This document shows positions 3,615 to 20,694 of a stretch of DNA of 64,000 bases, in pieces. Within the stretch, counting starts at the first letter, position 1. Each line of letters starts with the position of its first letter. Source of the DNA: Novosphingobium meiothermophilum (lineage in GTDB: Bacteria; Pseudomonadota; Alphaproteobacteria; Sphingomonadales; Sphingomonadaceae); assembly GCF_003171715.1 (NCBI RefSeq), contig NZ_QGHL01000010.1, positions 1 through 64,000 on the forward strand, given 5' to 3'. The position numbers and the translations under genes are program-made. The notes under the pieces were generated by a model that searched no databases, was not told the origin of the DNA, and saw only the letters and a program-made list of their open reading frames with translations.

Positions 3615-3627
3615 CGCATCAGCCGGT

Positions 3628-4041
3628 TCAGGCGTCGGCCTTGGCCTTGGCTTCGGCGGCAGCGCGGAACACCGCGTGGTCGAAGTAATAGGGCTTGATC
3701 TCGCAGCACTTGCCATCGCGGAAGCGGAACAGTTCGCACAGTTCGGCGGGTGGCAGCGAAGGATCGGCAAACTGGAATGACAGGATCGTCACGGCGTGGT
3801 CCTTGCCCGCAGTCGTTTCCACCCGGTTCAGCGCCACCACATCCACCAGCCCCATGACCTTGACGTAAAGCTCCTGAAGCGCATTCTTGCCGCGATAGAC
3901 GCCTTCCATCGGCAGGCCGGGCGCTTCGGTAACGAAGAAATCGTCGGTCAGCATCGAGGCCGCCTTTTCCCAGTCCCCCGTGCCGGTGGCGGCATAGAGA
4001 TCATCGACGAACTGGATCATTTCCTGTGCAGTCATGGTCAT
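3628..4041 (-). CDS. SnoaL/NTF2-like small protein
   Basis: A 137-residue protein of the NTF2/SnoaL fold, a cone-shaped alpha+beta barrel used in catabolism for isomerase, hydratase or cyclase chemistry, or simply for binding. The typical start helix (MIQFVDDLYAATGTGDWEKAASML), a TDDFFVTEAPGLP strand, the YRGKNALQELY helix and a C-terminal sheet ending FRFRDGKCCEIKPYYF are visible. ATG 4041 is chosen because a GAGAGGG ribosome site lies about 9 bases upstream; an upstream in-frame ATG lacks one. It is divergent from the MDR reductase at 4174 across a 132-base gap that must hold both promoters. Its substrate is unknown, but the placement suggests the same pathway as the neighbouring reductases and SDRs. 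Confidence 0.7.
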   Translation of the reverse strand: MTMTAQEMIQFVDDLYAATGTGDWEKAASMLTDDFFVTEAPGLPMEGVYRGKNALQELYVKVMGLVDVVALNRVETTAGKDHAVTILSFQFADPSLPPAELCELFRFRDGKCCEIKPYYFDHAVFRAAAEAKAKADA

Positions 4042-4173
4042 GGCAAAAAACCCTCTCTCGCGGTGCCATGGAAGATCAACCATGCGCGCGCATCCGAAAC
4101 CTAGCGATATGACTAGCGCTGCGCCGGGCGCGGGCGCGCTATGGGTTCTGGCAAGAGAGAGGACTTGCCGAAA

Positions 4174-5187
4174 ATGACAGCATCCGTCACCCGCCAGATC
4201 ACCTTGGCCCGCCGTCCGGTGGGCGTGCCCGTGCCCGAAGACTTTGCGCTGAAGGAGGCGCCCCGCCCGGTGCCCGGCCCCGGCGAGATTCTGGTGAAGA
4301 TGCGCGTCTGTTCGTGCGATCCGGCCATCCGGGGCTTTCTGGATGACCGGCCAAGCTATCTGCCGCCGGTGGCGCTGGGGGCGCCGATCAACGGCATGTC
4401 ACTGGGCGAGGTGGTGGAATCGCACAATCCCGATTTTCCCGTCGGCACATTGGTGCGCACATTCGCGGTCTGGTCGGAATACTATGTGGTGGGCGCCGAT
4501 GCACTGGGCATCGAAAAGGTGAATGCCGCGCCCGGCGTGCCCTTGCAGCACTACATGGGCGCGCTTGGCCCGGTGGGGCTGACGGCATGGGTCGGCCTGT
4601 TCGAGATCGGCAAGGCAAGGGCTGGTGAAACCGTGCTGGTAAGCGCCGCGGCAGGGGCCACGGGCAGCACCGTGGTGCAACTGGCCAAGGCCGCAGGTTG
4701 CCGTGTGATCGGCCTTGCGGGCGGCCCGGCCAAGGCGCAGATCGTGCGCGATCTGGGCGCTGATGTGGCGATCGACTACAAGGCTGTGCCCGATCTCGCC
4801 GCCGCGATTGCCGAGGCCGCGCCAGAGGGAATCGATGTCTATTTCGACAATGTGGGCGGCGAAACGCTGGACGCCGTGCTGCCGCTGATGCGCCTGCATG
4901 GCCGCGTGGCGGTGTGCGGCATGATCGCGCAGTATAACGATGCCGACAATCCGCACGGCAACCGCAACCTCTGGCAACTCGTGGTCAACCGGCTGACCAT
5001 GCGCGGGTTCATCACCTACGATCACCCCGAAGTGCTGGGCGAGGCGCAGGCCATGCTTGACCGTCTGTTTGCCGAGGGCAAGCTCAAGCCGCTGGAGAAC
5101 CTGCGCGAAGGGCTGGAGAAGCTGCCCGAAGCCTTCATCGACCTGATGAGCGGGCGCACGACCGGCAAGACGCTGGTCCTGATCTGA
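4174..5187 (+). CDS. NADP-dependent zinc-free MDR reductase (curcumin/prostaglandin-reductase type)
   Basis: A 337-residue medium-chain reductase that would reduce the C=C bond of an alpha,beta-unsaturated ketone or aldehyde with NADPH. The N-terminal GroES-like domain has MRVCSCDPAIRGFLDDRPSY and no zinc-ligand cysteine set. The Rossmann domain has the VSAAAGATGSTV nucleotide loop and the IDVYFDNVGGETLDA and RVAVCGMIAQYN strands that mark the YncB/leukotriene B4 dehydrogenase family. It is the first of three paralogues in this window (others at 10988 and 16252). ATG 4174 follows a GAGAGAGGA site. The gene is followed after 17 bases by an SDR, so they are probably co-transcribed with the VOC, ferredoxin and SnoaL genes downstream. 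Confidence 0.88.
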   Translation: MTASVTRQITLARRPVGVPVPEDFALKEAPRPVPGPGEILVKMRVCSCDPAIRGFLDDRPSYLPPVALGAPINGMSLGEVVESHNPDFPVGTLVRTFAVWSEYYVVGADALGIEKVNAAPGVPLQHYMGALGPVGLTAWVGLFEIGKARAGETVLVSAAAGATGSTVVQLAKAAGCRVIGLAGGPAKAQIVRDLGADVAIDYKAVPDLAAAIAEAAPEGIDVYFDNVGGETLDAVLPLMRLHGRVAVCGMIAQYNDADNPHGNRNLWQLVVNRLTMRGFITYDHPEVLGEAQAMLDRLFAEGKLKPLENLREGLEKLPEAFIDLMSGRTTGKTLVLI

Positions 5188-5204
5188 ACGGGGAGGGCAA
5201 AGCC

Positions 5205-5942
5205 ATGGCCGTGCTTGCAGGAAAGACCGCGTTCGTCACCGGCGGGGCATCGGGACTGGGCGAGGCGATTGCCCGCGCCTATGCCGCCGAAGGGGCCAGC
5301 GTGATCGTGGCCGATATCGATGTGGCGGGCGGCAATGCGCTGGCTGCGGACATCGGCGCCCGGTTCGTGGAACTGGATGTGACGCGCGAGGAATCGTGGG
5401 CTGCGGCGGTTGCCCCGATCGCGCGGATCGATGTGCTGGTCAACAATGCCGGGATCACCACGCTCGGTTCGGTCGAAGACCTGACGCTGGCGCAGTTCCG
5501 GCACGAGCTGGACATCGATGTGCTGGGCGTGTTCATGGGCATTCAGGCTGCCCTGCCGAAGATGAAGGCGCATGGCGGCTCGATCATCAACATGTCCTCG
5601 CTTTCGGGGGTGAAAGCATCGGCCAACCTGTGCGCCTACAATGCCGCCAAGGCCGCAGTCACCTTGATGACCAAATCCTGCGCACTGCACTTTGCGCAAA
5701 AAGGCTATGGCATTCGCTGCAATTCGATCCACCCCGGCGCGATCCACACGCCCATCATCGACAAGGTCCTGGCGCAGAGCGACAACCCGGAAGCGCTTTA
5801 CCGCAGCTTCGTGGATGTTCACCCGGTGGGCCGCCTTGGCAAGCCGGAGGAAATCGCCGCAATCGCGGTCTATCTCGCCAGCGATGCCAGCGCCTTTGCC
5901 ACGGGGGCCGAGTTCCGCGTGGATGGCGGAGCTTCGATATGA
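5205..5942 (+). CDS. SDR family oxidoreductase
   Basis: A 245-residue classical short-chain dehydrogenase. The cofactor loop TGGASGLG is near residue 10 and is followed by VADIDV, whose acidic residue favours NAD(H). NNAG lies in the middle, and the catalytic set reads SSLSG then YNAAK. The C-terminal VDGGAS end is regular. It would interconvert a hydroxyl and keto group on a pathway intermediate. It starts 17 bases after the MDR gene and its TGA overlaps the ATG of the VOC gene (ATATGA at 5937-5942), so translation of the two is probably coupled. The substrate cannot be read from sequence. Confidence 0.9.
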   Translation: MAVLAGKTAFVTGGASGLGEAIARAYAAEGASVIVADIDVAGGNALAADIGARFVELDVTREESWAAAVAPIARIDVLVNNAGITTLGSVEDLTLAQFRHELDIDVLGVFMGIQAALPKMKAHGGSIINMSSLSGVKASANLCAYNAAKAAVTLMTKSCALHFAQKGYGIRCNSIHPGAIHTPIIDKVLAQSDNPEALYRSFVDVHPVGRLGKPEEIAAIAVYLASDASAFATGAEFRVDGGASI

Positions 5943-6484
5943 GCGCCAAGACCATCGGGGGGCTGCCGGTTCGGCAGATCGCCTTCTTTGTCGAGGACGT
6001 GCGCGAAGCCGCGCTGGCGCATCACCGGCTCTACGGCTCAGGGCCGTTCTTCGTGGCCGACAATATCCCGCTGGCGCGCGCGGTGCATCGCGGGGTGGAG
6101 CGCCCGCTCGATCATACCTCGGCCTATGGGCAATGGGGCGAAGTGATGGTGGAGTTCGTGGCGCAGAACAATCCCGGCCCTTCGCCGTTCCGCGATCTCT
6201 ACCCCGAAGGATCGGGGCGCTGGGGGATGCACCATCTGGCGATCTTCGTGGACGACGTGGACGCGGCCATTGCCCGCTTTGCCGCCGCTGGCGCAGCCTG
6301 CGCGCTGCGTGCCGAGATGACCGACGGTTTCGTCTTCGCCTTTGCCGACACATCGGCCACGCTGGGCGCGATGACCGAGCTTTACACCCCGACCACAAGC
6401 CTGCTTGATTTCTATGCCATGGTGGCGCAGGCCGCCAAAGGCTGGGATGGCGGCAAACCGGTCAGAACCATCCGTATTTCCTGA
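5939..6484 (+). CDS. VOC (glyoxalase/dioxygenase superfamily) protein
   Basis: A 181-residue protein with two beta-alpha-beta-beta-beta units of the vicinal-oxygen-chelate superfamily. The first opens with VRQIAFFVEDVREAALAH, the second with MHHLAIFVDDVDAAIARF, the latter giving the usual metal-ligand position (MHH). An acidic candidate ligand occurs late in MTELYTPTTS. VOC enzymes include extradiol dioxygenases, epimerases and hydrolases, so the reaction cannot be named. The ATG overlaps the SDR stop by 4 bases, and the Rieske ferredoxin begins 12 bases after its stop. This tight SDR-VOC-ferredoxin order says it acts in the same pathway. Confidence 0.8.
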   Translation: MSAKTIGGLPVRQIAFFVEDVREAALAHHRLYGSGPFFVADNIPLARAVHRGVERPLDHTSAYGQWGEVMVEFVAQNNPGPSPFRDLYPEGSGRWGMHHLAIFVDDVDAAIARFAAAGAACALRAEMTDGFVFAFADTSATLGAMTELYTPTTSLLDFYAMVAQAAKGWDGGKPVRTIRIS

Positions 6485-6496
6485 GGACTTTGCGAC

Positions 6497-6847
6497 GTGA
6501 GCGATACCTGGCACCCCCTTCTGAGCGAGAGCGACTTTCCGGCAGAGGGCAAGCTTGCCGCAAAAGTGGGCGGATGGCACGTGCTCGTGGCCAGGACCGA
6601 CGATGGCTTTCATGCGGTGAACGATCGCTGCACCCATCAGGCCGCGCTGCTTTCCACCGGCCGCATCCGGCGCGGGGCCGTCATGTGCCCGCTGCACGGC
6701 GCGCGCTTTGAAATGGCCACGGGGCGCTGCATCGGCGGGGCCTACAAGGATCTGCGCACATTTCCCGTGCGCGTGGAAGGCGGGCAGATCGAGGTCTGCG
6801 TGCCCGACGCGGCCCCCGGCATGGATGAACTGCCGGTCGTGCTCTGA
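6497..6847 (+). CDS. Rieske [2Fe-2S] ferredoxin (non-heme oxygenase type)
   Basis: A 116-residue small electron carrier. The cluster ligands are in CTHQ (C45, H47) and CPLHG (C64, H67), the two-loop Rieske arrangement, and the whole length is one Rieske domain as in ferredoxins of ring-hydroxylating systems. The start is a GTG at 6497, with GAGGA about 9 bases upstream. No reductase gene is seen nearby. Two Rieske oxygenase subunits lie 11-14 kb downstream on the other strand and are candidate partners; that pairing is inference. The position directly after SDR and VOC genes shows it is expressed with the catabolic operon. Confidence 0.92.
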   Translation: MSDTWHPLLSESDFPAEGKLAAKVGGWHVLVARTDDGFHAVNDRCTHQAALLSTGRIRRGAVMCPLHGARFEMATGRCIGGAYKDLRTFPVRVEGGQIEVCVPDAAPGMDELPVVL

Positions 6848-6926
6848 ACTCGCTCAAAGCGCAGGTTCCGATGGCGCGGCGGCGCGTTACCTTGCCCGCC
6901 GAAACCACTATCGGGAGAGAACGACC

Positions 6927-7355
6927 ATGCCCTTTACCGGCCCCGCCGAAGACCGCCTCGCCATCCGCGAGCTGCTTGAAACCTATGCCGATGCCGTGAC
7001 CCGGTGCGATGCCGATGCCTGGGCGGCAACCTGGGCGCAGGATGCCGAATGGTCGCTGCCCGATTATCCGGAACTTGGCACGACAAGGGGCCGCGATGCG
7101 ATCCGGGCAATGTGGGTGGAAGCCATGAAGAACTTCCCCGGCATCATGTTCGAGGCATGGCCCGGCTCGATCGAGGTCACGGGCGATACCGCCGTGATGC
7201 GCAGCTATACCTCCGAAGTCTATGACCAGAACGGCACGACCATGCGCGACCGCGGGGTCTATGAGGATACCTGCGTGAAAGTGGACGGCCAGTGGCTGTT
7301 CAAGACGCGCACCTTCCGCAACATCCACCGCCAGCACGCCCCCAAGGGCTGCTGA
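6927..7355 (+). CDS. SnoaL-like/NTF2 family protein
   Basis: A 142-residue single-domain protein. It opens with the helix AIRELLETYADAVTRCDADA, then WAATWAQDAEWSLPDYPE, a G-R-D-A-I-R helix, and a closing sheet with YEDTCVKVDGQWLF, the regular pattern of SnoaL_4-type catabolic proteins. Such proteins in sphingomonad clusters often sit with Rieske oxygenases and SDRs and have no assigned reaction. ATG 6927 follows a GGGAGAG site. It is the last gene of the 4174-7355 set and faces the convergent ArsI/CadI gene across a hairpin. Confidence 0.78.
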   Translation: MPFTGPAEDRLAIRELLETYADAVTRCDADAWAATWAQDAEWSLPDYPELGTTRGRDAIRAMWVEAMKNFPGIMFEAWPGSIEVTGDTAVMRSYTSEVYDQNGTTMRDRGVYEDTCVKVDGQWLFKTRTFRNIHRQHAPKGC

Positions 7356-7386
7356 ACACATCCTAGCTGGAAATCAGGGGCTTTTT

Positions 7387-7406
7387 CCGGGGGCACGCGC
7401 CCCCGG
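7387..7406. terminator. Hairpin between convergent genes
   Basis: CCGGGGGC (7387-7394) pairs with GCCCCCGG (7399-7406) around a 4-base loop, a very stable 8-base-pair stem. The flanking GGCT/AGCC can add a few pairs. There is no T run on the exit side for either strand, so it is not a textbook intrinsic terminator, but its place between two convergent stops (7355 and 7425) fits a transcription block. Confidence 0.4.
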
Positions 7407-7424
7407 AGCCGCAGTGCCTTCCCG

Positions 7425-7859
7425 TCAGCAGCAGGCGCTGGCCGGAGCGCTGGCTGAGACAAGCGCGGCAAGATCGGGGCTATCGCCATAGATCGTGCTG
7501 CTGCCTTCGGTGAGAAACGCTTCCCAGACAACCCCGTCGGGGTCGGCAATCCAGCTCTTGCGCGACTTGGCATAGCAGCAGGTTGCCGCGCCTTCATTGA
7601 CCACCGGCGCCTTGGCACTGACGAGGCGCGACTGGACCTCGGCAAGCTCGGCCGCGCTATCGACCTGCAGGCCGACATGCTCGATTCCCTGTGGCCTGCC
7701 ATTGCGCAGCGATACGGCGAAATTGATGCGCGGATCTTCAAGCATCCACTTGGCATAGTCGTCCTTGACCACGCTGGGCGGCGCATCGAACAGGCCGGTG
7801 TAGAACGCAATCGAGGCGTCGATATCAGCTACGCCGACATGAACATGGAAACGCTTCAT
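7425..7859 (-). CDS. arsI: ArsI/CadI family VOC metalloenzyme
   Basis: A 144-residue VOC protein of the ArsI/CadI type. ArsI is an Fe(II)-dependent dioxygenase that cleaves the carbon-arsenic bond of trivalent organoarsenicals; CadI is the cadmium-induced relative. The signature is complete: H5 (MKRFHVHVG), H61 (GIEHVGLQV) and E113 (VVWEAF) fit the metal triad, and the vicinal thiols in ATCCYA (C94, C95) fit the substrate-binding pair. A second CC ends the protein. The start overlaps the ArsR stop by one base, so the two are co-translated under ArsR control. ArsI activity is likely but CadI-like roles cannot be excluded. Confidence 0.85.
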   Translation of the reverse strand: MKRFHVHVGVADIDASIAFYTGLFDAPPSVVKDDYAKWMLEDPRINFAVSLRNGRPQGIEHVGLQVDSAAELAEVQSRLVSAKAPVVNEGAATCCYAKSRKSWIADPDGVVWEAFLTEGSSTIYGDSPDLAALVSASAPASACC

Positions 7860-8200
7860 CAGTCATTCCTTTCGCTTGAAGTTTCGGCTGTGCATGTGCC
7901 TGCCGGGGCGCAGGCGGCACCGGCGCAGCAGTTTTCGGTCAGGAAGCCCATGACCTGGTCCATCACGCCGTAATCGGCGGCATAGATGACCCAGCGCCCG
8001 CTGCGGCGCTGGGTGACCAGACCCGCATAGGCAAGCTGGGTGATATGGAAGCTGAGCGCGGAAGGTTTGATGCCCAGCGCTTCGGCCAGCGCACCTGCTG
8101 CAAGACCATCCGGCCCTGCCTGCACAAGCAGGCGGAAGGCGGCGAGGCGGTGCTCCTGTGCCAGCGCGGCCAGTGCCTTGACGACTTTTGCAGTGTCCAT
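7859..8200 (-). CDS. arsR: ArsR/SmtB family metalloregulator
   Basis: A 113-residue winged-helix repressor. The recognition helix is in IKPSALSFHITQLAYAG, followed by the wing RRSGRWVIYAADY, as in ArsR proteins. The C-terminus carries C91, C92, C97 and C103 (NCCAGAACAP, GTC), resembling the C-terminal As(III) site described for Acidithiobacillus ArsR, which uses two adjacent cysteines plus one a few residues on. ATG 8200 is the natural start, placing the helix pattern at the usual depth. It is first in a two-gene operon with ArsI/CadI. A nested inverted repeat just upstream (8211-8252) is the probable operator. Confidence 0.88.
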   Translation of the reverse strand: MDTAKVVKALAALAQEHRLAAFRLLVQAGPDGLAAGALAEALGIKPSALSFHITQLAYAGLVTQRRSGRWVIYAADYGVMDQVMGFLTENCCAGAACAPAGTCTAETSSERND

Positions 8201-8210
8201 GACCGTGTCC

Positions 8211-8252
8211 CTTGATTCGATAATTGCAATATACTTGAAATATTGAATCAAG
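8211..8252 (-). promoter_or_regulatory. Probable ArsR operator: nested inverted repeats
   Basis: The AT-rich 42 bases directly upstream of arsR hold two nested dyads. The outer is CTTGATTC (8211-8218) with GAATCAAG (8245-8252), a perfect 8-base match. The inner is CAATAT (8227-8232) with ATATTG (8240-8245). Both are centred near 8232-8236 in an otherwise GC-rich region. ArsR/SmtB repressors bind such AT-rich imperfect palindromes over their own promoter. Confidence 0.65.
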
Positions 8253-8263
8253 CAAGGGGGTGG

Positions 8264-8300
8264 CAAAAAAATGGGGCGAGAGCCATCTGGCTCCCGCCCC
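8264..8300 (-). terminator. Intrinsic terminator after TonB receptor 1
   Basis: On the minus strand a 12-base-pair stem with one mismatch (8289-8300 with 8273-8284) runs into a seven-T tract (8265-8271 on the plus strand are A). It lies 49 bases past the receptor stop at 8350 and separates it from the arsR operon. Confidence 0.8.
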
Positions 8301-8349
8301 CCTTGTCCATCCCGCGGCGCCCATCGTGCCGGGCGCTGCGCGAACGCGA

Positions 8350-10821
8350 TCAGAAGCGCTTCGTCACCTGCACCTGCACCGTGCGCGGCAGGTTGCCGAA
8401 GCCGAGCTGGTCGGCGCGGATGCCGCCAGCGGTGCCGGTGCCGCCACCGGTCGAAGGACCATCGACAACGCCGGTCACGACGAAGCGGTTGGTCAGGTTC
8501 TTGCCGATCACCGCGATCTGCCAGTTGTCGTCCTCGGCGGCAAAGCGCACGCCCGCATCAAGCACGGCGTACTTGCCCTGCCGCGAGAAGGGGTTGCCGA
8601 AGCCGGAGGCGAGGTAGCTCGACGAGAAGCGGGTATCGACGTTCAGGCCGAACTTGTAGCCATCGCTGACCGGGGTTTCATACCCGACACCGAAGGCACC
8701 CGTCCATTCCGGCGCGACCGAGAGCGGACGTCCATTGAGGTTCTGGCGCGCATCCAGCCCGCCGATCAGCGTGCAGCCCTGCGCCGGGGTCTGCCCGGCA
8801 TAGCACGGGGCCTGCGGGAAGCTGGTGTAGCGGGCGTGGGTGTAGTTGACCGAGCCATGGACATTCAGGCCGGGCACATTGCGCGGCGCGAACTCGAAAT
8901 CCACTTCCACACCCTTGGTGCGGGCATTGGCGGTCAGGGTCTGGAAGGCAAAGATCGGCGAGTTGAAGAAATCGACCTGCAGATCATCGTAGGCATAGGT
9001 GAAGCCCACGAGGTTCAGGCGAAGCTGGTTGTCGGCCAGCGTGGTCTTGATCCCTGCTTCAAAGCCGCGCGCCTTTTCCGGATTGAACGTCAGGTCGGCC
9101 AGCGGATCGTTCGAGAACTTGGAGTTGATCCCCCCGTTCGAGAACCCGCCCGACTTGTAGGCCGTCTTGTAGGCACCATAGACGAGGATGCCCTGCTGCG
9201 GCTTCCACGTCAGGGTGACTTCGGGCGACCAGTCATTGAAGACCTGATTGGCGCGCACTTCGCCCAGACCATCCGGGTCATTCCGGTCGCGGAAGATGCC
9301 CTGCACGCCCAGGTTGTTGTAAGGCTGGGTGAAGAAGCTCTTCTTGGTTTCATGCGTATAGCGCACGCCGCCTGCCAGTTCGAGCTTGTCGACCAGCTCC
9401 CAGTTCACCTGCCCGAAAAGCGCCGCGGTTTCGCCGTCGGTGAAGCTCGTCTTGGCCGAAGCGACGAAGCGGTTGGCGGGCGATGCCTGATCGTCGCGCA
9501 GTCCCGCGAACATCACATACTGATCGAAGTCGCGCTTGGTCTTCTGATAAAGACCGCCAACCATCAGGTTGATCGGCCCGTCGAACGCGGTCTGCGCGCG
9601 CAGTTCCTGGCTGAATGCCTTCCAGGTGCTGTTCTCGGTGGCCCAGGTGCCGTTGTTGCTGCTCTGGAAATCGCAGGCGCAGGTCCAGCGGTTGTTGTTG
9701 GTGTTGTAGTTCGTCACCGAACTGATCGTCACGTTGTCGAGATCATAGGTGATGGCGCTGTTGATCGCCCACGAACGGTAGCGGTTGTAGAGCGCGCCGT
9801 CCTTCTTCGCGAAGGGGAAGTTGGCCGCAATGTCCGCCGGCATGTTGTTCTGGTGGGTGACGAAATCGGTGCCGCAGGCATAGCCGGTTAGCTGGCTCAC
9901 GCCGCTGGCAAGCCCGCAGTTATACGCCACGTAGTTCCACGAGGAATTGTTGACGTGGTTGTAGTTGTAGGAACCCTTGAGCACCATGCTGAGGCGATCG
10001 GTCGGGGTGTATTTCAGCGTGACCCTGCCCAGGAACTCCTTCTCGCCGGGCTGGCGTTCGGGCGCAGGCGTTGCCACGTGGCCGATGGGATTGCCGCTGC
10101 CGCCTGCCAAGAGGTTGCGGATGTCAACCGTGGTGTAGGTGCGGTTCACCGACACGTTGCGGTAATAGCCGCCGTCCATCAGCGAGCCGCGCACCGCCAC
10201 GCGCAGGCCAAGCGTATCGGTCAGCGGTCCCGATGCAATCAGTTCGCCCTGATACTGGCGCGAACGGAACTCGTAGGCTGCACGCGCGATGAACTCGCGG
10301 TCCTGCCCCGGATCGTTGGTGGCAAGGCTGATGACGCCCGCGGTGGCGTTCTTGCCGAAGAACAGCGCCTGCGGACCTTTCAGCACTTCGACGCGCTTGA
10401 GATCGAAGAAGCCTTCGTTGATGATGCGGCCCTGCCCGTAATAGGCGCCGTCCACCACCACGGCGACCGACTGCTCGATGCCGATCGAGGTTGACGATGA
10501 ACCGATGCCGCGAAGGGTAAGCTGCGCGCCCGAACCGTTCGAGGCGCGGCCAACGTTGAGATTGGGGGTGGCCGCCGCGATCTTCTCGATCGAGGTGATG
10601 TCGCGCTGCTGGATGACCTTTTCGGAAATGGCCATCACGGCAACGGGCACGGTCTGGACCGATTCCTCGCGCTTGCGGGCGGTAACGATGATTTCCTCAA
10701 GGCCGCCGCTTGAGGCTGCATCCTGTGCTGCATCCTGCGCATGGGCCGCGCCTGCGGGAACAATGGCTGCGCTGCCCAGAATGCAGGACGCAAGCAGCCA
10801 CGATTTGGCGGAGATCTTCAA
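8350..10821 (-). CDS. TonB-dependent outer-membrane receptor 1
   Basis: An 823-residue outer-membrane receptor for uptake of a pathway substrate or a chelate. A signal peptide (ending AHAQ) is followed by the TonB-interacting region LEEIIVTARKREESV, a plug with GIGSSSTSIG and RVEVLKGPQALFFGKNATAG, and a 22-strand-type barrel with alternating aromatic strands ending QVQVTKRF, the usual terminal beta-signal. The start is taken as TTG 10821 because GAGGGAGGATACC immediately precedes it and gives a clean signal peptide; the same 13-base leader stands before the ATG of receptor 2. It is divergent from an MDR reductase gene. The sphingomonad 'small-molecule' receptor type suggests an aromatic or terpenoid ligand rather than siderophore, but this is inference. 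Confidence 0.9.
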   Translation of the reverse strand: MKISAKSWLLASCILGSAAIVPAGAAHAQDAAQDAASSGGLEEIIVTARKREESVQTVPVAVMAISEKVIQQRDITSIEKIAAATPNLNVGRASNGSGAQLTLRGIGSSSTSIGIEQSVAVVVDGAYYGQGRIINEGFFDLKRVEVLKGPQALFFGKNATAGVISLATNDPGQDREFIARAAYEFRSRQYQGELIASGPLTDTLGLRVAVRGSLMDGGYYRNVSVNRTYTTVDIRNLLAGGSGNPIGHVATPAPERQPGEKEFLGRVTLKYTPTDRLSMVLKGSYNYNHVNNSSWNYVAYNCGLASGVSQLTGYACGTDFVTHQNNMPADIAANFPFAKKDGALYNRYRSWAINSAITYDLDNVTISSVTNYNTNNNRWTCACDFQSSNNGTWATENSTWKAFSQELRAQTAFDGPINLMVGGLYQKTKRDFDQYVMFAGLRDDQASPANRFVASAKTSFTDGETAALFGQVNWELVDKLELAGGVRYTHETKKSFFTQPYNNLGVQGIFRDRNDPDGLGEVRANQVFNDWSPEVTLTWKPQQGILVYGAYKTAYKSGGFSNGGINSKFSNDPLADLTFNPEKARGFEAGIKTTLADNQLRLNLVGFTYAYDDLQVDFFNSPIFAFQTLTANARTKGVEVDFEFAPRNVPGLNVHGSVNYTHARYTSFPQAPCYAGQTPAQGCTLIGGLDARQNLNGRPLSVAPEWTGAFGVGYETPVSDGYKFGLNVDTRFSSSYLASGFGNPFSRQGKYAVLDAGVRFAAEDDNWQIAVIGKNLTNRFVVTGVVDGPSTGGGTGTAGGIRADQLGFGNLPRTVQVQVTKRF

Positions 10822-10834: not shown

Positions 10835-10866
10835 TGAAAGGCTTGTCGAGACGTAGAATGCTTATT

Positions 10867-12841: not shown

Positions 12842-12852
12842 GGCGCGAGCGA

Positions 12853-13617: not shown

Positions 13618-13726
13618 TGCCTGCAACTCCTGAATGGTCATGAAAAGGGCCGGGGGCGGGGGCAGCAGGCTTGTCGCCCGCAACCCCGCACCCCCAGGCA
13701 AGGTGGATCAGGTCAGTCCTTGCGCG

Positions 13727-16096
13727 TCAGAACTTGACGCCCAGGGTTGCGCCATAGGTGCGCGGTTCCAGCGCCATGCCGAACGACCAGAGGCCCGCCA
13801 CGGTGAACGCGTGGGTGGTGGTCTTTTCGTTCAGCAGGTTGCGGCCGAAGACGCGGACATAGGCCTTGGTGTTGTTGAGATCGAAGTTGAAGGTCAGCGA
13901 CGCATCGACCAGATCCTGCGTGGTGGTGCGCACGCGCGGATCGTTGCCGCCCACGGTGATGAGCGTTGCCTGCCCCGCGCTGTTCAGCGTCGGGGTCAGC
14001 GAAGCGGCCGAGAGCTGCTGGTCATAGGGCGTGATGTGACGCCAGCCGACGTTCGTCGAGATGTCGCCAAAGCTGGTGGGATAGGTGTATTCCGCGTTGA
14101 GCGATGCGGTGAAATCGGGCGCATAGATCAGGCGGTTGGCCGAATAGTCGAACGGCACCAGACCCGCACCGCAGGCGTTGGTCGCAACCGGGCCGCCCGC
14201 ATAGGCGCCGCAGGTGACGAAATTGCGGAAGTGCGAATCGAGGAACGCCAGCGAGCCGGTGAGCTTGAAGTTGCTGGTCACGCGGAAGGTGCCGTCGAAC
14301 TCGATACCCTTGATGAGCGCGCCGCCCGGCACGTTGCCGGTGATCGTCTGGTTGCCGGTAGGCCCGCCGGGAACGGTCAGGTTCTGCTGCATGTCCTTGT
14401 AGTCGGAAATGAACCCGGCAAGGTTGAGATCAAGCCTTCCGTCCAGCGTCGTGAACTTCACGCCCACTTCATAGGCATCGACGGTTTCGGGCTGGAACGG
14501 GGTGCTGGCGGTCTGCGCGGTGGCAGCGCGCGGGCTGAAGCCGCCCGAACGATAGCCGCGCGACCACGAGGCATAGACCATCGTATCGCGGTTGGGGCGC
14601 CAGTCGATGCCAACCTTGGGCGTGAACTTGCTGAAGCTGGCCTTGCCGCGGCCGACCAGCACCACATCGTTCAGCGTCACCGTATCGGGGTTCAGCAGGA
14701 CGTTGGGGGCAAAGCCATTGGCCAGTTCCTTGCGGTCGCGGCTCCAGCGGCCACCGAACGAGAGGCGGAAGCCATCGGCAAAGGCCCAGTTGAAGTCGCC
14801 GAAGAAGGCATAGCTTTCGGTCTTGCCTTCAACGCGCTGCGCGTTGCGGTCAAACAGCGTGGGCGGCACGTTGGGGCTGAAGCCGAACACGCGCGACCAC
14901 TGGGTCAGGTCGTAGTTCGACTTGAAGTAGAACCCGCCAACCACATAGTCGAAGCCTTCGAAGAGGTTGCCGGCAGCGCGCAGTTCCTGGCTCCACTGCT
15001 CGTAGTGCTGGCGGCGATCGACGTAGTAGAGATCGACCGAAGAGCCATCGAAGTCCTGCGTCTGGGCTTCGGTGCTCTTGCGCCAGCCGGTGATCGACGT
15101 CAGCTTGACCCCGCCCGCATCGTAGTTGAGTTCGAGCGTGGCTTCAGGCGCCTTGTAGTTGCTCGATGCGGCATCGCCGAAGGTGGTGTAGAGATCGGTC
15201 GTGCTGTTGCGGTTGCATTCGCGCGCCGGAATGAAGGCGCAGAACACTTCGGTGCTGTTGGTCAGGTTGCTGACCACAGGATCGAAGGTCTGCTCCACCT
15301 GCGCCACGGTAAGCTGCGCCGTGAAGCCCGAACCGGCGGGCTTGAACAGCAGGCTCGCGCCGTAGTTTTCGGCATTGCTCCAGCCCGCGCTGACATTGCG
15401 CGTGACGTTGCGATAATAGCCGTCGGTCTCGTTGTGGAAATACCACGCCTTGACGCCCCAGGTCTCGCCATCGCCGTAGTTGGCAATTGCCTTGGCCGAG
15501 AACGTGTTCCACCGGCCATAAGTGACTTCGGCCTTGAGGCCGGGTTCCATCGTGGGCTTGGAACGGGTGATCGAGATCACGCCGCCGATGGTGTTGGCGC
15601 CGAACAGCGTGCCCTGCGGGCCGCGCAGCACTTCAAGCTGGGCCACGTCGAAGGCGTCCTGAAGCTGGCCGGTGTTGGTGCCGATCACCACGCCATCGAC
15701 AAGCACACCCACGGTCGGGGTCTGCGACTTTTCGATATCGGCATAGGTCAGGCCGCGGATCGAGATGTTGGCCGCCTGCGCGCCGGAGTTCTGCTGCGTG
15801 ATGAGCAGGCCGGGAGCCGCGCCCTGCAGATCGCCAATGTTCACCGCGGCCTTGCTTTCCAGCATGGCAGTGTTGACGGCGGTAATGGCAATCGGAGTGG
15901 ACTGGAGCGTTTCCGAACGGCGGCGGGCGGTAACGATGATCGCTCCGCTGTCTTCCACCGTGGCTTCGGATTCCGTGCTCTGCGCGCTGGTGCCCTGCGG
16001 CTCGTCCGCTTCGGCGGCAAAGGCGGGCAGCGAGAAAGCGAGCGCGGAACTGGCAAGGGCAACGGCAACAATGCGCCGCGCGGCTGGTGTCTTCAT
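13727..16096 (-). CDS. TonB-dependent outer-membrane receptor 2
   Basis: A 789-residue receptor. Residues 1-30 are a signal peptide (RRIVAVALASSALAFSLPAF, then AAEA). The TonB-box region is SGAIIVTARRRSETL; the plug carries NISIRGLTYADIEKS and LEVLRGPQGTLFGANT; the barrel ends with an aromatic terminal strand (GATLGVKF). It imports a small molecule across the outer membrane using TonB energy; the ligand is unknown. The start ATG follows GAGGGAGGATACC, the same leader as receptor 1. It is divergent from the third MDR reductase across 155 bases, repeating the receptor 1 layout. Co-directional SDR 12853 follows it. Confidence 0.9.
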   Translation of the reverse strand: MKTPAARRIVAVALASSALAFSLPAFAAEADEPQGTSAQSTESEATVEDSGAIIVTARRRSETLQSTPIAITAVNTAMLESKAAVNIGDLQGAAPGLLITQQNSGAQAANISIRGLTYADIEKSQTPTVGVLVDGVVIGTNTGQLQDAFDVAQLEVLRGPQGTLFGANTIGGVISITRSKPTMEPGLKAEVTYGRWNTFSAKAIANYGDGETWGVKAWYFHNETDGYYRNVTRNVSAGWSNAENYGASLLFKPAGSGFTAQLTVAQVEQTFDPVVSNLTNSTEVFCAFIPARECNRNSTTDLYTTFGDAASSNYKAPEATLELNYDAGGVKLTSITGWRKSTEAQTQDFDGSSVDLYYVDRRQHYEQWSQELRAAGNLFEGFDYVVGGFYFKSNYDLTQWSRVFGFSPNVPPTLFDRNAQRVEGKTESYAFFGDFNWAFADGFRLSFGGRWSRDRKELANGFAPNVLLNPDTVTLNDVVLVGRGKASFSKFTPKVGIDWRPNRDTMVYASWSRGYRSGGFSPRAATAQTASTPFQPETVDAYEVGVKFTTLDGRLDLNLAGFISDYKDMQQNLTVPGGPTGNQTITGNVPGGALIKGIEFDGTFRVTSNFKLTGSLAFLDSHFRNFVTCGAYAGGPVATNACGAGLVPFDYSANRLIYAPDFTASLNAEYTYPTSFGDISTNVGWRHITPYDQQLSAASLTPTLNSAGQATLITVGGNDPRVRTTTQDLVDASLTFNFDLNNTKAYVRVFGRNLLNEKTTTHAFTVAGLWSFGMALEPRTYGATLGVKF

Positions 16097-16109
16097 GGTA
16101 TCCTCCCTC
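16097..16109 (-). promoter_or_regulatory. Ribosome binding leader shared with receptor 1
   Basis: The minus strand reads GAGGGAGGATACC directly before ATG 16096, identical over 13 bases to the leader at 10822-10834. Confidence 0.65.
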
Positions 16110-16251
16110 AGAACAAGGTCGCATGGCGTCGTTGCGCCACGGCTCGCCTCCTTCATCCACCGCACGCTGCTTTCAACCAACTGCCACTTGTTACAGGTGC
16201 CCTGCCTGCGCGATGCTGCATCCTCGAAACACAGACCGGGAGAGAGACCGC

Positions 16252-17289
16252 ATGACCGTAAACCGCCGATTCCTCCTTGCCCGCCGCCCACATGGCACGC
16301 CCGTTCCGCAAGACTTTTCGCTGGTGGAACAGCCGGTTCCAGAAGCCCCCGAAGGCGGCTTCGTGGTGCGCAACTGCTATGCCTCGCTCGATCCCGCGCA
16401 GCGCGGATGGATGGACGATGCCCCCAGCTACATGCCGCCGATCCCGCTGGGCGATCCGGTGCGGGCCACCACGGTGGGTGTGGTCGCGGCATCGAAATCG
16501 CCTGATTTTGCCGTGGGCGACTGGGTTCTGGGCATGAACGGCCTGGAGGACTACTCGGTAAACGTTGCCGGCGGCTTCACCATGAAGGTTGATGTGTCCC
16601 AGGTTGATTCGCCATCGCGGTTCCTTTCCGCGATGGGTGCCGTGGGGCTTACCGCCTATTTCGGGCTGACCGAAGTGGCAAGGCCCAAGGCGGGGGAAAC
16701 CCTGCTGGTTTCGGGCGCTGCGGGCGCGGTGGGATCGGCCGTGGGTCAGATCGGCAAGATCATGGGCTGCCGCGTGATCGGCATTGCGGGTGGCCCGGCC
16801 AAGTGCCGCCGCCTGATCGAGGATTACGGCTTCGACGTGGCGATCGACTACAAAACCGCTGAGGGACGGGCGAAGAGCGTGGCCGAACTGGCCGCCGAAA
16901 TCCGCGCCGCTGCGCCAAACGGGGCCGATGTGGTGTTCGAGAACGTGGGCGGCGATGTGATGGACGCCGAACTGCTCAATCTGGCCAAGTATGCGCGCAT
17001 CGTGCTGTGCGGCATGATCAGCGAATACAATTCGCCCGAAAAGATCGGCGTGCGCAACCTTTGGCAGGTGCTGGCGCAGCAGGCCACGCTCTATGGCTAC
17101 CTCGTCATGGACTATGTGCCGCGCTTTGCCGAAGGCGGGGCGGTGATGGCCGGATGGATGGCCGAGGGGCGCCTGCGCATCGACGAGGACGTGCAGGAAG
17201 GTCTGGAAAACGCCTATGATGCCTTCATGCGCCTGTTCACCGGCGCGAACACGGGCAAGCTGGTGCTGAAGATCGCCGATGGCCTCTGA
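16252..17289 (+). CDS. NADP-dependent zinc-free MDR reductase (third paralogue)
   Basis: A 345-residue member of the same MDR subfamily as 4174 and 10988. Visible landmarks: VRNCYASLDPAQRGWMDD, SPSRFLSAMGAVGLTAYFGL, the VSGAAGAVGSAVGQIG nucleotide loop, GIAGGPAKCRRL, AIDYKTAEG and VVFENVGGDVMDAEL, VLCGMISEYNSP. The second start residue set MTVNR matches the paralogue at 10988. It likely reduces an enone or enoyl intermediate. The start follows GGGAGAGAGACC. It diverges from TonB receptor 2, and its stop lies 11 bases inside the next SDR gene, so the two are translationally coupled. Confidence 0.88.
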   Translation: MTVNRRFLLARRPHGTPVPQDFSLVEQPVPEAPEGGFVVRNCYASLDPAQRGWMDDAPSYMPPIPLGDPVRATTVGVVAASKSPDFAVGDWVLGMNGLEDYSVNVAGGFTMKVDVSQVDSPSRFLSAMGAVGLTAYFGLTEVARPKAGETLLVSGAAGAVGSAVGQIGKIMGCRVIGIAGGPAKCRRLIEDYGFDVAIDYKTAEGRAKSVAELAAEIRAAAPNGADVVFENVGGDVMDAELLNLAKYARIVLCGMISEYNSPEKIGVRNLWQVLAQQATLYGYLVMDYVPRFAEGGAVMAGWMAEGRLRIDEDVQEGLENAYDAFMRLFTGANTGKLVLKIADGL

Positions 17290-18010
17290 CCGGCTGCTGG
17301 GCCGCAAGGCGATCGTCACGGGGGCGGCATCGGGTATCGGGGCCGCTGCCGCCGCGCGGCTGCGTGCCGATGGCGCAACCGTTTTCACCGCCGACGTGCA
17401 GGCGCCGGATTCGGGCGCGAAGGTCGATTTCGTGGCTGATCTGACCGCGCCCGATGCCAATGCCCGGCTGGTTCAGGCTGCGGTTGCCGCCATGGGCGGG
17501 CTGGATACGCTGGTGCCCTGCGCCGGGATCAGCGCCTTTCATCCGCTGGAAGGGCACGACGATGCCTATTTCCTGCGCGTGCTCGATGTGAACCTTGTGG
17601 CCGTGTTCCGCCTGATCCGCGAAGCCGCGCCGCAGCTGAAGGCGGCGGGCAACGGGCGGATCGTGACCATCGGTTCCACCACGTCGAGCCATGGCGACGA
17701 AGGGCTTTGCGCCTATGCCGCTTCCAAGCACGCGGTGCTGGGCCTGACGAAATCGGTGGCGGCCGAACTGGGACCGTTCGGTGTGACCGCCAATTGCGTG
17801 CAGCCCGGCGCCATTGCCACGCCGATGACCGCACCCGCCTTTGCCGACATGCCTGAGTTCCGCACCTTCTGGGAAAACAAGGCCGCGCTGCGCCGCCTTG
17901 GCCAGCCTGAGGACATTGCCGATGTCATCGCCTTCCTGTGCAGCGATGATGCGCGTTTCATGTCCGGCCACGGGGTGTGGGTGGATGGCGGCGCGATGGT
18001 GCGGCACTAG
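17279..18010 (+). CDS. SDR family oxidoreductase
   Basis: A 243-residue classical SDR. TGAASGIGAAAAARL gives the cofactor loop, TADVQ follows the second strand (acidic, NAD preference), the usual NNAG is replaced by PCAG, and the catalytic set is TIGSTTSS with YAASK. The end is GHGVWVDGGAMV. The NNAG-to-PCAG change is a modest oddity that occurs in some SDRs; the Asn that relays protons is missing at that place. It overlaps the MDR 16252 gene by 11 bases and probably processes the same intermediate. It faces the Rieske oxygenase operon tail to tail. Confidence 0.87.
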   Translation: MASDRLLGRKAIVTGAASGIGAAAAARLRADGATVFTADVQAPDSGAKVDFVADLTAPDANARLVQAAVAAMGGLDTLVPCAGISAFHPLEGHDDAYFLRVLDVNLVAVFRLIREAAPQLKAAGNGRIVTIGSTTSSHGDEGLCAYAASKHAVLGLTKSVAAELGPFGVTANCVQPGAIATPMTAPAFADMPEFRTFWENKAALRRLGQPEDIADVIAFLCSDDARFMSGHGVWVDGGAMVRH

Positions 18011-18077
18011 CGCCCGGACGCGCAGGGCAGAGGGCGGGATGGCGGTATGCCCCGGCCCGATCCGCCCCTGGGGCAGA

Positions 18078-19262
18078 TCACTCCTTCATCACCGGCATCG
18101 GCGTCTGCCCGGTTTCGTCAAGGTAATAGGCCACCCATTTGTGGAAGAACTGGTTGCCCGGTTCGTTGCGGCCGAAGGTCTGGTGCGTCATCGCGCCTGA
18201 TTCCAGCCCGTTCTGCACCTTGAGACCGAGGAAGTAGTCCTCTTCCTCGACCACGTCGAAAAAGAAATCGCACATCCGGTCAAGCGCGGCGAGGCCCTCC
18301 TCGGTTTCGGGTTTCACCGGGAAGATATAGTTCATCACGGTGGTGTTCTGGTTGGCGGCGGGTCCGGGGAACAACTGGGCAAGCTGGCCCATTTCGGGCG
18401 CCAGGAAGAAGCTCATGTTGGGGAACAGCATCCGGATGAAATCATAGCCGTGGTTTTCCTGACGGCCCCATTCCTCGCGCGGGAGATCATGCAGGCGGGT
18501 GATGCTGTTCTGCGGAAAGCCCAGCCGGATGTGCGGGCCGAACCCTTCATAGCTGGCGCGGTTCGAAGGACTGCGCGTGGCCACGGTGTTGGTGTGCGCG
18601 GCCTGGAAGTGATAGCCTTCGAGATAGCCGTCATAGGCCACCTTCCAGTTGGCGCCCTGCATCTTGCGGCTCTTGTGGAAATACCACGTCTCCAGCCGGA
18701 GCGCGGCAAAATCCTCATACATGCCGCCCATCCACGCCACCGCGTCGATCGGCAGACCGGGCGTAAGGATCACGAAGATCATGCCCGCTGCCTCGTCACA
18801 GGGCAGCTCGGTCATGTTGAGGGTAGAGCGATCGACATCGCCGAACGTGCTCGCCTCGGCAATGCCGATCAGCTTGCCATCGTTGGCATAGGTCCAGCCG
18901 TGATACTGGCAGGCAAAGGCCCGGCAGTTGCCCTTGCCTTCGGGCGCAAGGTGCATGGCGCGGTGCTTGCACACGTTGAGGAACGCGCGCGCCTTGCCAT
19001 CCTTGCCGCGGGTGATGAGCACGGGCAGGCCCATCACATCCATCGCCTTGTAATCGTTCACTTCCGGCAATTCGATGGTCAGCGCCAGCATCAGCGGCAA
19101 GCGCTTGAAGATGCGGGCGATCTCGGCATCGAAGCGTTCCTGGCTGAGGTAATCGGCCACGGGCACGCGCATCACGTCGCTGGCCTGATCGGTGGTCTTC
19201 GTTTCCACGAAGTGCAGCATCCGTTCCGCAGCGCGGGCATACTTGTCGTAAAGTTCGGTCAT
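18078..19262 (-). CDS. Rieske non-heme iron oxygenase, large subunit (second in operon)
   Basis: A 394-residue oxygenase component. The Rieske site is C98/H100 in NVCKHRAMHL and C118/H121 in ACQYHGW. The mononuclear iron site is EGYHFQAAH (H218, H223), the usual E/D-x2-H-x4-H motif, with a C-terminal acidic ligand expected but not assigned. Such enzymes hydroxylate aromatic or alicyclic rings or demethylate ethers, fed by a ferredoxin. No beta subunit gene is present, so an alpha-only trimer is likely. It starts 10 bases after the end of a second Rieske gene (19273-20694) and lies downstream of it, so the two are co-transcribed. Substrate unknown. Confidence 0.9.
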   Translation of the reverse strand: MTELYDKYARAAERMLHFVETKTTDQASDVMRVPVADYLSQERFDAEIARIFKRLPLMLALTIELPEVNDYKAMDVMGLPVLITRGKDGKARAFLNVCKHRAMHLAPEGKGNCRAFACQYHGWTYANDGKLIGIAEASTFGDVDRSTLNMTELPCDEAAGMIFVILTPGLPIDAVAWMGGMYEDFAALRLETWYFHKSRKMQGANWKVAYDGYLEGYHFQAAHTNTVATRSPSNRASYEGFGPHIRLGFPQNSITRLHDLPREEWGRQENHGYDFIRMLFPNMSFFLAPEMGQLAQLFPGPAANQNTTVMNYIFPVKPETEEGLAALDRMCDFFFDVVEEEDYFLGLKVQNGLESGAMTHQTFGRNEPGNQFFHKWVAYYLDETGQTPMPVMKE

Positions 19263-19272
19263 CGGTGCGGCC

Positions 19273-20694
19273 TCACTTGTTCAGGTAGTAATCGAGGGTC
19301 TGGTGGATGTGGCGGATGCGGACTTCCTGATAGTCGGCCAGCTCCACCGCCCGATTCTTCGATGCCTTCAGCCCTTCGTGGCAAAGCTGCATGTTCTCGC
19401 TGTCCTGATCGAGCACCGCGCCCAGCACGCCAAGTTCGGGGGCATCGGCCCAGATCTGGTCATCGCCCAGCATGTGCATCGGCACGCCCGCCGGGCGCAG
19501 CCCCTCGCGTCTCTGGTCTTCGGGAATGCGGGCGATCACGCGCACTTCCATCAGGCACCTGTCCTGATCGGGCCATGGCCGCCAGCGATAGACGATGTTG
19601 GGCATGAACCCGCCCCACGGCGCGAAGTTGGGGAACACGTTATAGACCAGCGCATCGAGCAGCTCGCTTTCCGAGACGCCTGAATAGTCGCCGCCATACT
19701 GCTTTTCAGAGACCTCGCGCATCTTCTCGCCAAGGGCGGCGCGGGCACTGCGGCCTTCGGGCACTTCGATGGCGTAGTTGTCCTTGTCCGCGTCGTAGTT
19801 GTCGGCGCTGCGGCCGTTGTATTTGCGGAACTCGTCGATAATGCGCTGCTGCGGCCAGTTCTCGGACCTTGCCTGCGCCTCGATATGCGGGCTGATGACG
19901 CCGAAGGGAGTGTAGTTCACGTTCACGTGCCGCCCCAGCACATGATAGGCCGCGTTGGCATCGCCGGTGAAAGGCATCAGCTGAGGATGCGTGACATAGG
20001 CGTGGTAGCTTTCCATGAAGGCTTCCATCGCGATCTTCCAGTTGGCCGGGATCACCTTGGCCACCCAGGCCACTGTCACGCAATCCTCATGGCGCCAGCG
20101 CCTGAAGAACTCCGGCAGGGGATCGAGGTATTCCTCGATGCTGGGGCCTTCGGGGTTCTCGCGCACGAAGATATAGCCGCCCCACTGCGCAAGGCTGGCT
20201 TCGGGCAACTGCATCTTCTGATCGGTCAGGTGGGGAAAGTCCCAGCGGCAGGGAATATTGCGCAGCGATCCGTCGGGATTCCACGAAAAGCCGTGGAAGG
20301 GGCAGAGGAACTGGTCGGCGCTGCCGCTGTCGGTCTTGAGCTTGCGCCCGCGATGCAGGCACACGTTGTGGAACGCCTTCACACTGCCATCGTCCTGCCG
20401 CACCAGCAGATAGGACCGCCCGGCATTGTCGTAGGTCACATAATCGCCGGGTTCGGGCAGGTCTTCCTCGCGCGCGGCAAACTGCCACACGTTGGGCCAC
20501 ATCTTCTCGCATTCGGCGCGGAAGAAATCGGGGCTGTAGTAGCGCGCCGCATCGATCGGTTCCGAGCCAAGATACTGCGAGCGGTCCTCGGTCATGAAGG
20601 CGGGGGGCTGCACTTCGTCCGAGCGCAGGATGTCTTCCCAGCTTGTGCCGGGGCAGCGGGCCTGATGAAGGGCGCCGGGATCGCGGTCTGCCAT
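19273..20694 (-). CDS. Rieske non-heme iron oxygenase, large subunit (first in operon)
   Basis: A 473-residue oxygenase component, longer than its partner. Rieske ligands are C112/H114 in NVCLHRGRKL and C131/H134 in CPFHGFSW; the iron site is FMESYHAYVTH (H231, H236). The extra length comes from an N-terminal extension of about 45 residues and an insertion after the iron motif. ATG 20694 follows GAGAGGA. It is first in a two-gene operon with the 394-residue oxygenase. The two differ enough that they are not recent duplicates, so they may act on successive intermediates or form a mixed complex. The only ferredoxin in the window is at 6497. A strong dyad (20854-20881) lies 160 bases upstream. 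Confidence 0.9.
   Translation of the reverse strand: MADRDPGALHQARCPGTSWEDILRSDEVQPPAFMTEDRSQYLGSEPIDAARYYSPDFFRAECEKMWPNVWQFAAREEDLPEPGDYVTYDNAGRSYLLVRQDDGSVKAFHNVCLHRGRKLKTDSGSADQFLCPFHGFSWNPDGSLRNIPCRWDFPHLTDQKMQLPEASLAQWGGYIFVRENPEGPSIEEYLDPLPEFFRRWRHEDCVTVAWVAKVIPANWKIAMEAFMESYHAYVTHPQLMPFTGDANAAYHVLGRHVNVNYTPFGVISPHIEAQARSENWPQQRIIDEFRKYNGRSADNYDADKDNYAIEVPEGRSARAALGEKMREVSEKQYGGDYSGVSESELLDALVYNVFPNFAPWGGFMPNIVYRWRPWPDQDRCLMEVRVIARIPEDQRREGLRPAGVPMHMLGDDQIWADAPELGVLGAVLDQDSENMQLCHEGLKASKNRAVELADYQEVRIRHIHQTLDYYLNK

Follow-up and report, generated by a model that had tools for sequence, protein, structure and literature searches.

The window analysed in this work covers the initial 64 kb of contig C4 in the genome of Novosphingobium meiothermophilum, which is assembled into 20 contigs (3.47 Mb), and carries an island of catabolic genes. 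Seventeen genes are counted between positions 3628 and 20694, in the order SnoaL1, CurA1, SDR1, VOC, Rieske ferredoxin, SnoaL2, arsI, arsR, TonB receptor 1, CurA2, thuA, SDR2, TonB receptor 2, CurA3, SDR3, RO1 and RO2. Our own gene calls give a coding share of ~95% for this interval, and neighbours on the same strand mostly overlap or, by gap calculation, lie no more than ~100 bases apart. The nearest named relatives, as judged by the Rieske oxygenase RO2, are N. jiangmenense (92%) and N. cyanobacteriorum (91%), in a list that may omit the genome itself.

Two Rieske oxygenase alpha subunits lie at the right end of the island, both on the minus strand: RO1 (18078-19262, 394 amino acids; PF00848, 166 bits, and PF00355, 59 bits) and RO2 (19273-20694, 473 amino acids; 74 and 62 bits for the same families). 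A stand-alone Rieske [2Fe-2S] ferredoxin with a CxH...CxxH motif is encoded at 6497-6847 on the plus strand (PF00355, 64 bits), and is likely to be the electron donor of the oxygenases. Three CurA-like NADP-dependent double-bond reductases are found on the plus strand, namely CurA1 (4174-5187), CurA2 (10988-12016) and CurA3 (16252-17289), with PF16884 scores of 110, 104 and 121 bits. Their NF058644 scores (310, 271 and 336 bits, with a cut-off of 440) place them in the same superfamily as the curcumin reductase CurA but not in the equivalog. The short-chain dehydrogenases/reductases (SDRs) are also three, all matched by PF13561: SDR1 (5205-5942, plus strand, 200 bits), SDR2 (12853-13617, minus strand, 227 bits) and SDR3 (17279-18010, plus strand, 187 bits), the last overlapping CurA3 by 11 bases. 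A VOC-family protein (5939-6484, plus strand; PF13669, 37 bits) overlaps SDR1 by 4 bases. Two SnoaL proteins complete the set, one SnoaL_2-like (SnoaL1, 3628-4083, minus strand; PF12680, 36.5 bits), which adjoins CurA1 in Novosphingobium sp. ES2-1 too, and one SnoaL_4-like (SnoaL2, 6918-7355, plus strand; PF13577, 78 bits). All these classes but the ferredoxin had been named in the original prediction, which was made from the sequence alone. The ferredoxin was absent from its list, as were a ThuA-domain protein (12004-12795, plus strand; PF06283, 86 bits), which overlaps CurA2 by 13 bases, and two TonB-dependent receptors on the minus strand, TBDR1 (8350-10818, start approximate; PF00593, 124 bits, and PF07715, 60 bits) and TBDR2 (13727-16096; 138 and 62 bits).

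The original prediction had also seen no CoA ligase, thiolase or classical ring-cleavage dioxygenase in the island. Family scans of the 17 island proteins indeed detected no CoA ligase, no thiolase and no recognised ring-cleavage dioxygenase. The VOC superfamily also includes extradiol dioxygenases; the VOC protein at 5939-6484 gave no match to a ring-cleavage model at E 0.001.

The limits of the island were drawn where homology to same-genus stretches without the island at that place comes to an edge, and run from 3549 to 20850, with no strand assigned. On the left side, a block made of a GH5-like gene, an unassigned gene and a GH10-like gene is also present in genome G315, and the shared homology ends at window position 3549. 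On the right side, a block that begins with a hypothetical gene and a DASS transporter and reaches as far as an aminotransferase and TrhO is also present in G325, and homology begins at 20,851; the hypothetical gene and the transporter are matched from 20,850 in G315 and from 20,840 in G354. At the position of the island, the flanking blocks of these three genomes have different neighbours. Because the blocks recur in the genus beside other genes, the island is a discrete, sharply bounded unit of ~17.3 kb.

A mobile element was considered as the origin of the island and rejected. The longest exact repeat common to both edges (~400 bases each) has 9 bases in direct and 8 in inverted orientation, and 166 of 186 random pairs taken from 24-63 kb share a repeat of at least 9 bases, so that the edge repeat is not beyond chance. 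Only short inverted repeats are found inside each edge, and the family scans of the island proteins detected no transposase or integrase. The right-hand conserved block opens with an inverted repeat at window 20854-20881, whose 12-base arms are 92% complementary, and the DNA to the left of this block varies among the compared genomes of the genus. TrhO in the right block scores above the family cut-off, and a chromosomal setting for the island in this genome is therefore suggested. In the plasmid collection, the best three records carry RO2 on plasmids, and the two annotated ones also carry RO1.

Genes for polysaccharide metabolism are found on both sides of the island, at window 202-3548 and 49934-62524. 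They include a GH5-like gene (named by reading), a GH10 xylanase-like gene below the cut-off, a GH3 gene, a melibiase with NPCBM and a TonB receptor; the protein encoded at 1170-2360 in the left flank has no Pfam match. The window also contains a suhB/mmgR small RNA at 32768-32840 on the minus strand (RF00519, 43.4 bits, threshold 41).

When the surroundings of RO2 were compared among relatives, a second set of genes was found on its other side: VOC2, SDR5, SDR4, a flavoprotein, a CoA ligase, RO1b, a TIM barrel protein and EthD, with gaps in some loci. RO1b is a third oxygenase, 54% identical to RO1. Below, the island is called module A and this set module B. Linkage was counted at 50% identity or more with half coverage in one alignment piece, and weaker or broken matches are thus missed. 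Class-A loci, defined by RO2 identity of at least 73%, number 25 among 79 RO2 loci, and 21 of them have both 10-kb flanks. RO1 adjoins RO2 in all 25. Among the 21 fully flanked loci, CurA3, CurA2 and the CoA ligase are found in 19 each, RO1b and SDR4 in 18 each, ThuA in 17, the TIM barrel protein, TBDR2 and SDR3 in 15 each, the flavoprotein and EthD in 14 each, SDR2 in 13 and SDR5 in 11. Lower counts were obtained for SnoaL2 (9), the ferredoxin and VOC2 (8 each), TBDR1 (7), SnoaL1 (4) and CurA1 (1), and the VOC, SDR1, ars, GH and DASS genes were found in none; genes of module A that lie far from RO2 often fall outside the compared stretches.

Gene order is kept in the relatives, mostly at 60-93% identity. 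One example is plasmid pNL2 of N. aromaticivorans DSM 12444 (SARO_RS18200-18335), which has the same genes in the same order within the compared stretch (RO2 91%, RO1 93%); this stretch ends before the genes from SnoaL1 to the ferredoxin. On pNL2, SARO_RS18290-18295 correspond to RO1 and RO2, SARO_RS18315 to the flavoprotein and SARO_RS18320 to the CoA ligase. Unlike the genome analysed here, pNL2 has modules A and B together, and it harbors in addition arsC-acr3 and an insert with transporter, oxidase and sigma-54 activator genes. In p1 of Novosphingobium sp. ES2-1, TBDR1 is followed by arsR-arsI-arsC-acr3, SnoaL2, the ferredoxin, VOC, SDR1, CurA1 and SnoaL1, which is the order of the window but for arsC-acr3. 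Azospirillum and Niveispirillum retain a reduced set (RO2, RO1b, a CurA, ThuA, TBDR2, SDRs, the CoA ligase, SnoaL1 and the ferredoxin), with identities of 37-61%. One might propose that the genes merely share a stretch of DNA without a joint pathway, as the island is made of seven runs on alternating strands, ArsR is its sole regulator and one half of the cluster has been relocated. The recurring gene order argues against such a chance assortment, as conservation extends across genera and gaps within most runs are short or negative, and we consider it highly improbable.

An additional cluster was seen in plasmid pRZP2 of Rhodococcus sp. ZPP (L127), where VOC, ThuA, an RO2-like gene (33%) and an SDR are grouped, with one small gene between ThuA and the RO2-like gene and a 47% relative of the flavoprotein ~15 kb off. 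The cluster also contains flavoproteins, a P450 and PEP-utilising enzymes, and a possible interpretation is that it is a distant actinobacterial counterpart.

In the genome under study, the same eight genes of module B are found on contig C13, at ~58.0-67.4 kb, with 80-95% identity to pNL2. As the two junctions are internal to their contigs, the split results from a rearrangement instead of a gap in the assembly, barring misassembly there. As C13 carries module B, the statement that no CoA ligase is present holds for the window and not for the genome. A CoA ligase belongs to the cluster in relatives too, and the argument that had been built upon its lack is not supported.

Module B on C13 has two extra genes between the flavoprotein and the CoA ligase (L119:1914-3304), which we read as an MT-A70-like methyltransferase and a partner; in pNL2 no gene is found at that place. 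The surrounding region, C13:40-120 kb (L118-L121), is dense in catabolic genes. Besides module B, it contains a second group with Rieske oxygenases as well as SnoaL and VOC genes. It also encodes a possible P450, which matches a pentalenolactone synthase model below the cut-off (77 bits), and a KstD-like flavoprotein and three SDRs beside an RO2 paralogue (63%).

A smaller unit is nested in the island. The gene at 7425-7859 on the minus strand encodes a homologue of ArsI, a family of organoarsenical C-As lyases: its score exceeds the curated cut-off (NF041414, 117.3 bits, cut-off 116), and its vicinal cysteine pair aligns with that of PDB entries 5d4f and 5c4p, generically named chains that we take to be ArsI. 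This is a second protein with a VOC fold, where the original prediction had counted one. It is an arsenic-resistance homologue and not a ring enzyme; its two matches to ring-cleavage models (~19 bits) are below the cut-off. An ArsR/SmtB-family repressor is encoded next to it (7859-8200, minus strand; NF033788, 64 bits, cut-off 55), and the vicinity of both genes indicates an arsenic unit. The pair arsR-arsI follows TBDR1 in the window, and arsR-arsI-arsC-acr3 follows it in pNL2 and ES2-1. These arrangements might be taken to mean that the cluster detoxifies or uses an organoarsenical, with ArsI cutting the C-As bond and the other enzymes processing the organic part. Against this idea, nine further class-A loci show the position with both its sides (L045, L046, L050, L052, L054, L055, L056, L058 and L079), and no ars gene was found in any of them. 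An organoarsenical role is thus extremely improbable, and arsR-arsI is probably a passenger.

The catalytic motifs of the oxygenases were examined in alignments of relatives. C98, H100, C118, H121, E215, H218, H223 and D342 of RO1 are invariant in 33 aligned sequences, and C112, H114, C131, H134, E228, H231, H236 and D431 of RO2 are invariant in 42. Both proteins have the CxH...CxxH cluster and the 2-His-1-Asp iron site of Rieske non-haem iron oxygenase alpha subunits, the Asp being presumably the third iron ligand. A bridging aspartate is typical of classical aromatic ring-hydroxylating dioxygenases, which are alpha3beta3, and Asp does occupy the bridging position in the dioxygenases for naphthalene and phthalate that were aligned with RO1. 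In RO1 and RO2 the bridging residue is Glu (33/33 and 42/42, respectively). A first regular expression detected bridging Glu in just 28 of 77 RO2 relatives, but the five misses shown have WH in place of YH beside the Glu, and Glu 228 is invariant in the 42-sequence alignment. No beta subunit (PF00866), as an alpha3beta3 enzyme would have, is found in the island; the genome has one marginal match on contig C14, which scores 23.4 bits (27.2 with neighbours) with a cut-off of 27. As judged from their sequences, RO1 and RO2 look like alpha-only, glutamate-bridged enzymes, unlike classical aromatic-ring dioxygenases.

Structure prediction yielded models with a predicted local distance difference test (pLDDT) score of 92.6 for RO1 and 82.8 for RO2, with values below 50 at residues 229-235 of the latter. 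For both proteins the best fold matches are to CntA, the carnitine monooxygenase of group V Rieske enzymes, and the models provide no clue about the substrate. CntA shares with RO1 and RO2 the bridging Glu, whose role has been described (PMC7948474), and the possession of an alpha subunit only. It differs in sequence (15-24% identity) and presumably in substrate; furthermore, the island has a Rieske ferredoxin instead of a CntB-like reductase.

The flavoprotein of module B provides an indication about the compound degraded. Its best PDB match is 4at0, a 3-ketosteroid delta4-(5alpha)-dehydrogenase (E 6e-97, 329 bits; the next match has 106 bits), which we take to come from Rhodococcus jostii RHA1. 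The alignment is full-length (residues 14-486 of 491), and 3-ketosteroid delta4-(5alpha)-dehydrogenase activity is a prediction from sequence. The tyrosine and the Tyr-x-Ser motif that are presumably catalytic in this enzyme are kept in the alignment. The match to 4at0 favours a cyclic ketone intermediate. The cluster differs from the system in which 4at0 acts in that no 9,10-seco gene set was detected in the island.

To survey the distribution of the flavoprotein, 298 genomes of the family were considered, and those with an RO2 of at least 75% identity (n = 10) were taken as cassette genomes. A flavoprotein of at least 70% identity is found in nine of the 298 genomes: eight of the 10 cassette genomes vs one of the 288 others (p 3e-13). 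This figure overstates the association because the genomes are related and both limits were set after inspecting the lists. Of the two remaining cassette genomes, G118 has a 60% flavoprotein on a different contig from its RO2, and G289 has none at E 1e-150.

Altogether, we favour the interpretation that the island is one half of a once contiguous ~27-kb sphingomonad catabolic cluster, split by rearrangement, that serves the degradation of a bulky alicyclic, terpenoid- or sterol-like compound; a rough probability for this interpretation is 50%. It starts from the observed gene content, boundaries, conserved linkage and catalytic motifs, and from these we infer the reactions, their order and the substrate class. 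Module A would provide uptake, two oxygenases, the ferredoxin, double-bond reductases and dehydrogenases, and module B a VOC protein, two SDRs, the flavoprotein, the CoA ligase, the third oxygenase, the TIM barrel protein and EthD. In the proposed sequence of events, the TonB receptors would import a bulky hydrophobic compound, SDRs would turn a ring hydroxyl into a ketone, and the flavoprotein would desaturate beside that ketone. The alpha-only Rieske monooxygenases, supplied by the small ferredoxin, might hydroxylate alicyclic or methyl carbons, the CurA-type enzymes would reduce enones arising en route, and the CoA ligase would activate an acid product for beta-oxidation. The substrate would be polycyclic and terpenoid- or sterol-like rather than a simple aromatic. 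The original prediction had proposed the chemistry of a saturated or partly saturated ring, and the dehydrogenase homologue in the partner half and the alpha-only, Glu-bridged oxygenases fit this proposal. Its observations are confirmed and its interpretation is partly supported.

Several observations weigh against the favoured interpretation. The RO2 model is poor at the iron-site loop. RO1 and RO2 are 15-24% identical to the 50 solved chains listed for each, which is too low for substrate prediction, and classical dioxygenases score nearly as high as CntA, so the fold leaves the reaction unsettled. Module B is incomplete in some class-A loci (the flavoprotein is found in 14/21), and in ES2-1 the compared stretch has polysaccharide genes, not module B, beside RO2. 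The family of the flavoprotein also holds non-steroid dehydrogenases, and of the 25 models shown NF005510, 'FAD-binding protein', is the only one above its cut-off. Other adverse observations point to two specific alternatives, which are considered below.

One alternative is a phenolic or lignin-derived compound (for example a lignan, a dimer or an alkylphenol) as the substrate of the cluster, with the oxygenases demethylating or hydroxylating the aromatic part and the CurA enzymes reducing exocyclic enones. The pNL2 cluster hints at a phenolic compound, since it contains a phenol-type transporter (Phenol_MetA_deg), a flavin oxidase (FAD_binding_4) between two cytochrome c genes and a XylR-type sigma-54 activator (XylR_N/V4R). 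Moreover, a 50-51% relative of the pNL2 oxidase lies near an RO2 paralogue in loci L066 and L085 and on contig C13 of the genome itself. The best solved matches of the CoA ligase are salicylate- and dihydroxybenzoate-AMP ligases, which act on aromatic acids and would suit a substrate of this kind; models for medium-chain and cyclohexanecarboxylate ligases were matched below the cut-off. Among named proteins, curcumin reductase is also the closest to the CurA-type enzymes, all three of which score below the cut-off. However, the insert that in pNL2 contains the transporter, an aldehyde dehydrogenase (AldDH), the oxidase (VAO) and the sigma-54 activator (s54) is found in none of the 25 class-A loci at 50% identity, and no recognised ring-cleavage dioxygenase was detected among the scanned proteins of both halves (SDR4 left out). 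The bridging Glu and the lack of a beta subunit nearby also speak against this alternative, and a phenolic substrate is in our view somewhat unlikely.

The second alternative is that the cluster serves the breakdown of steroids or bile salts by the known 9,10-seco route or by a sphingomonad variant. This possibility finds an argument in the flavoprotein itself, whose closest solved relative is a steroid enzyme, and in strain ES2-1, which we take to be an estradiol degrader and which published papers name together with estradiol. In the genome under study, C13 also encodes two KshA_C proteins, and a KstD-like protein encoded on C2 scores 521 bits, below the cut-off of 789. In addition, N. aromaticivorans has been reported to begin cholate degradation by a delta4,6 variant (PMC8399759), and homologues of progesterone genes are found on pNL2 (PMC12239570). 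On the other hand, neither KshA nor a hydrolase family was found in the island scans, and KshA_C (E 1e-10) is present in 49 of the 298 genomes without significant association: three cassette genomes (G000, G118 and G289) vs 46 of the 288 others (Fisher p 0.22). The genome under study is one of the three. Because KshA_C was not seen in seven of the 10 cassette genomes, which keep the cassette without this marker, the classical 9,10-seco route is unlikely as the general role of the cassette; the test weighs against that classical route alone. Steroid breakdown as the purpose of the cluster is therefore unlikely, although a steroid role may exist in single strains. In a metagenome-assembled genome labelled Chol11 (L074), a 61% RO2 paralogue and a 36% SDR were found within its 17-kb stretch. 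A related system is the catabolism of steroidal saponins in Sphingobium sp. RC1, a tomato root isolate, which is a sphingomonad pathway with an orthologue of 3-ketosteroid delta4-dehydrogenase; it differs in that the main text of the report makes no mention of Rieske, TonB or oxygenase (PMC10653915).

Two further readings were also tried and rejected. Acyclic terpene utilisation (Atu) was considered because AtuA lies 9.4 kb to the right of the island, but AtuA is found in just three of the 10 cassette genomes (E 1e-40). The AtuA-family protein, encoded at window 30098-31969 on the minus strand (PF07287, 444 bits), shares its neighbourhood with a class II aldolase-like protein and an acyl-CoA dehydrogenase. 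Elsewhere, AtuA and KshA_C are within ~8-13 kb of one another in some genomes (e.g., G296, G200 and G289). Abscisic acid (ABA) was the second candidate. The plasmid record of strain P6W, an ABA user (PMC6938937), has a 41% relative of the flavoprotein, and P6W is absent from the best 20 of 939 RO2 plasmid records; its chromosome was not searched.

A tentative speculation, to which we attach rather low confidence, is that modules A and B make up an aerobic pathway not yet described, with a polycyclic terpenoid or sterol-like compound from plants or algae as its substrate. In such a pathway, three alpha-only, Glu-bridged Rieske monooxygenases and a 5alpha-3-ketone dehydrogenase would replace the KshA-dependent 9,10-seco opening, and the modularity of the system would allow it to be kept even when distributed over different contigs. 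The original prediction knew of no named pathway with this gene set; likewise, we recognised no published description of the cluster in the open-licence PMC literature (old locus tags of pNL2 were interpolated from PMC12352068).

In N. aromaticivorans DSM 12444, orthologues of the two halves occur together. This much-studied strain breaks down aromatics from lignin (PMC12239570), and a transposon library of it is available (PMC10725011), so that the substrate can be sought directly. The case also illustrates how the apparent lack of genes in a single window can lead to wrong conclusions once a cluster is split. The cluster could extend the range of substrate classes known from sphingomonads, and could provide an orphan group of Rieske oxygenases with a function.

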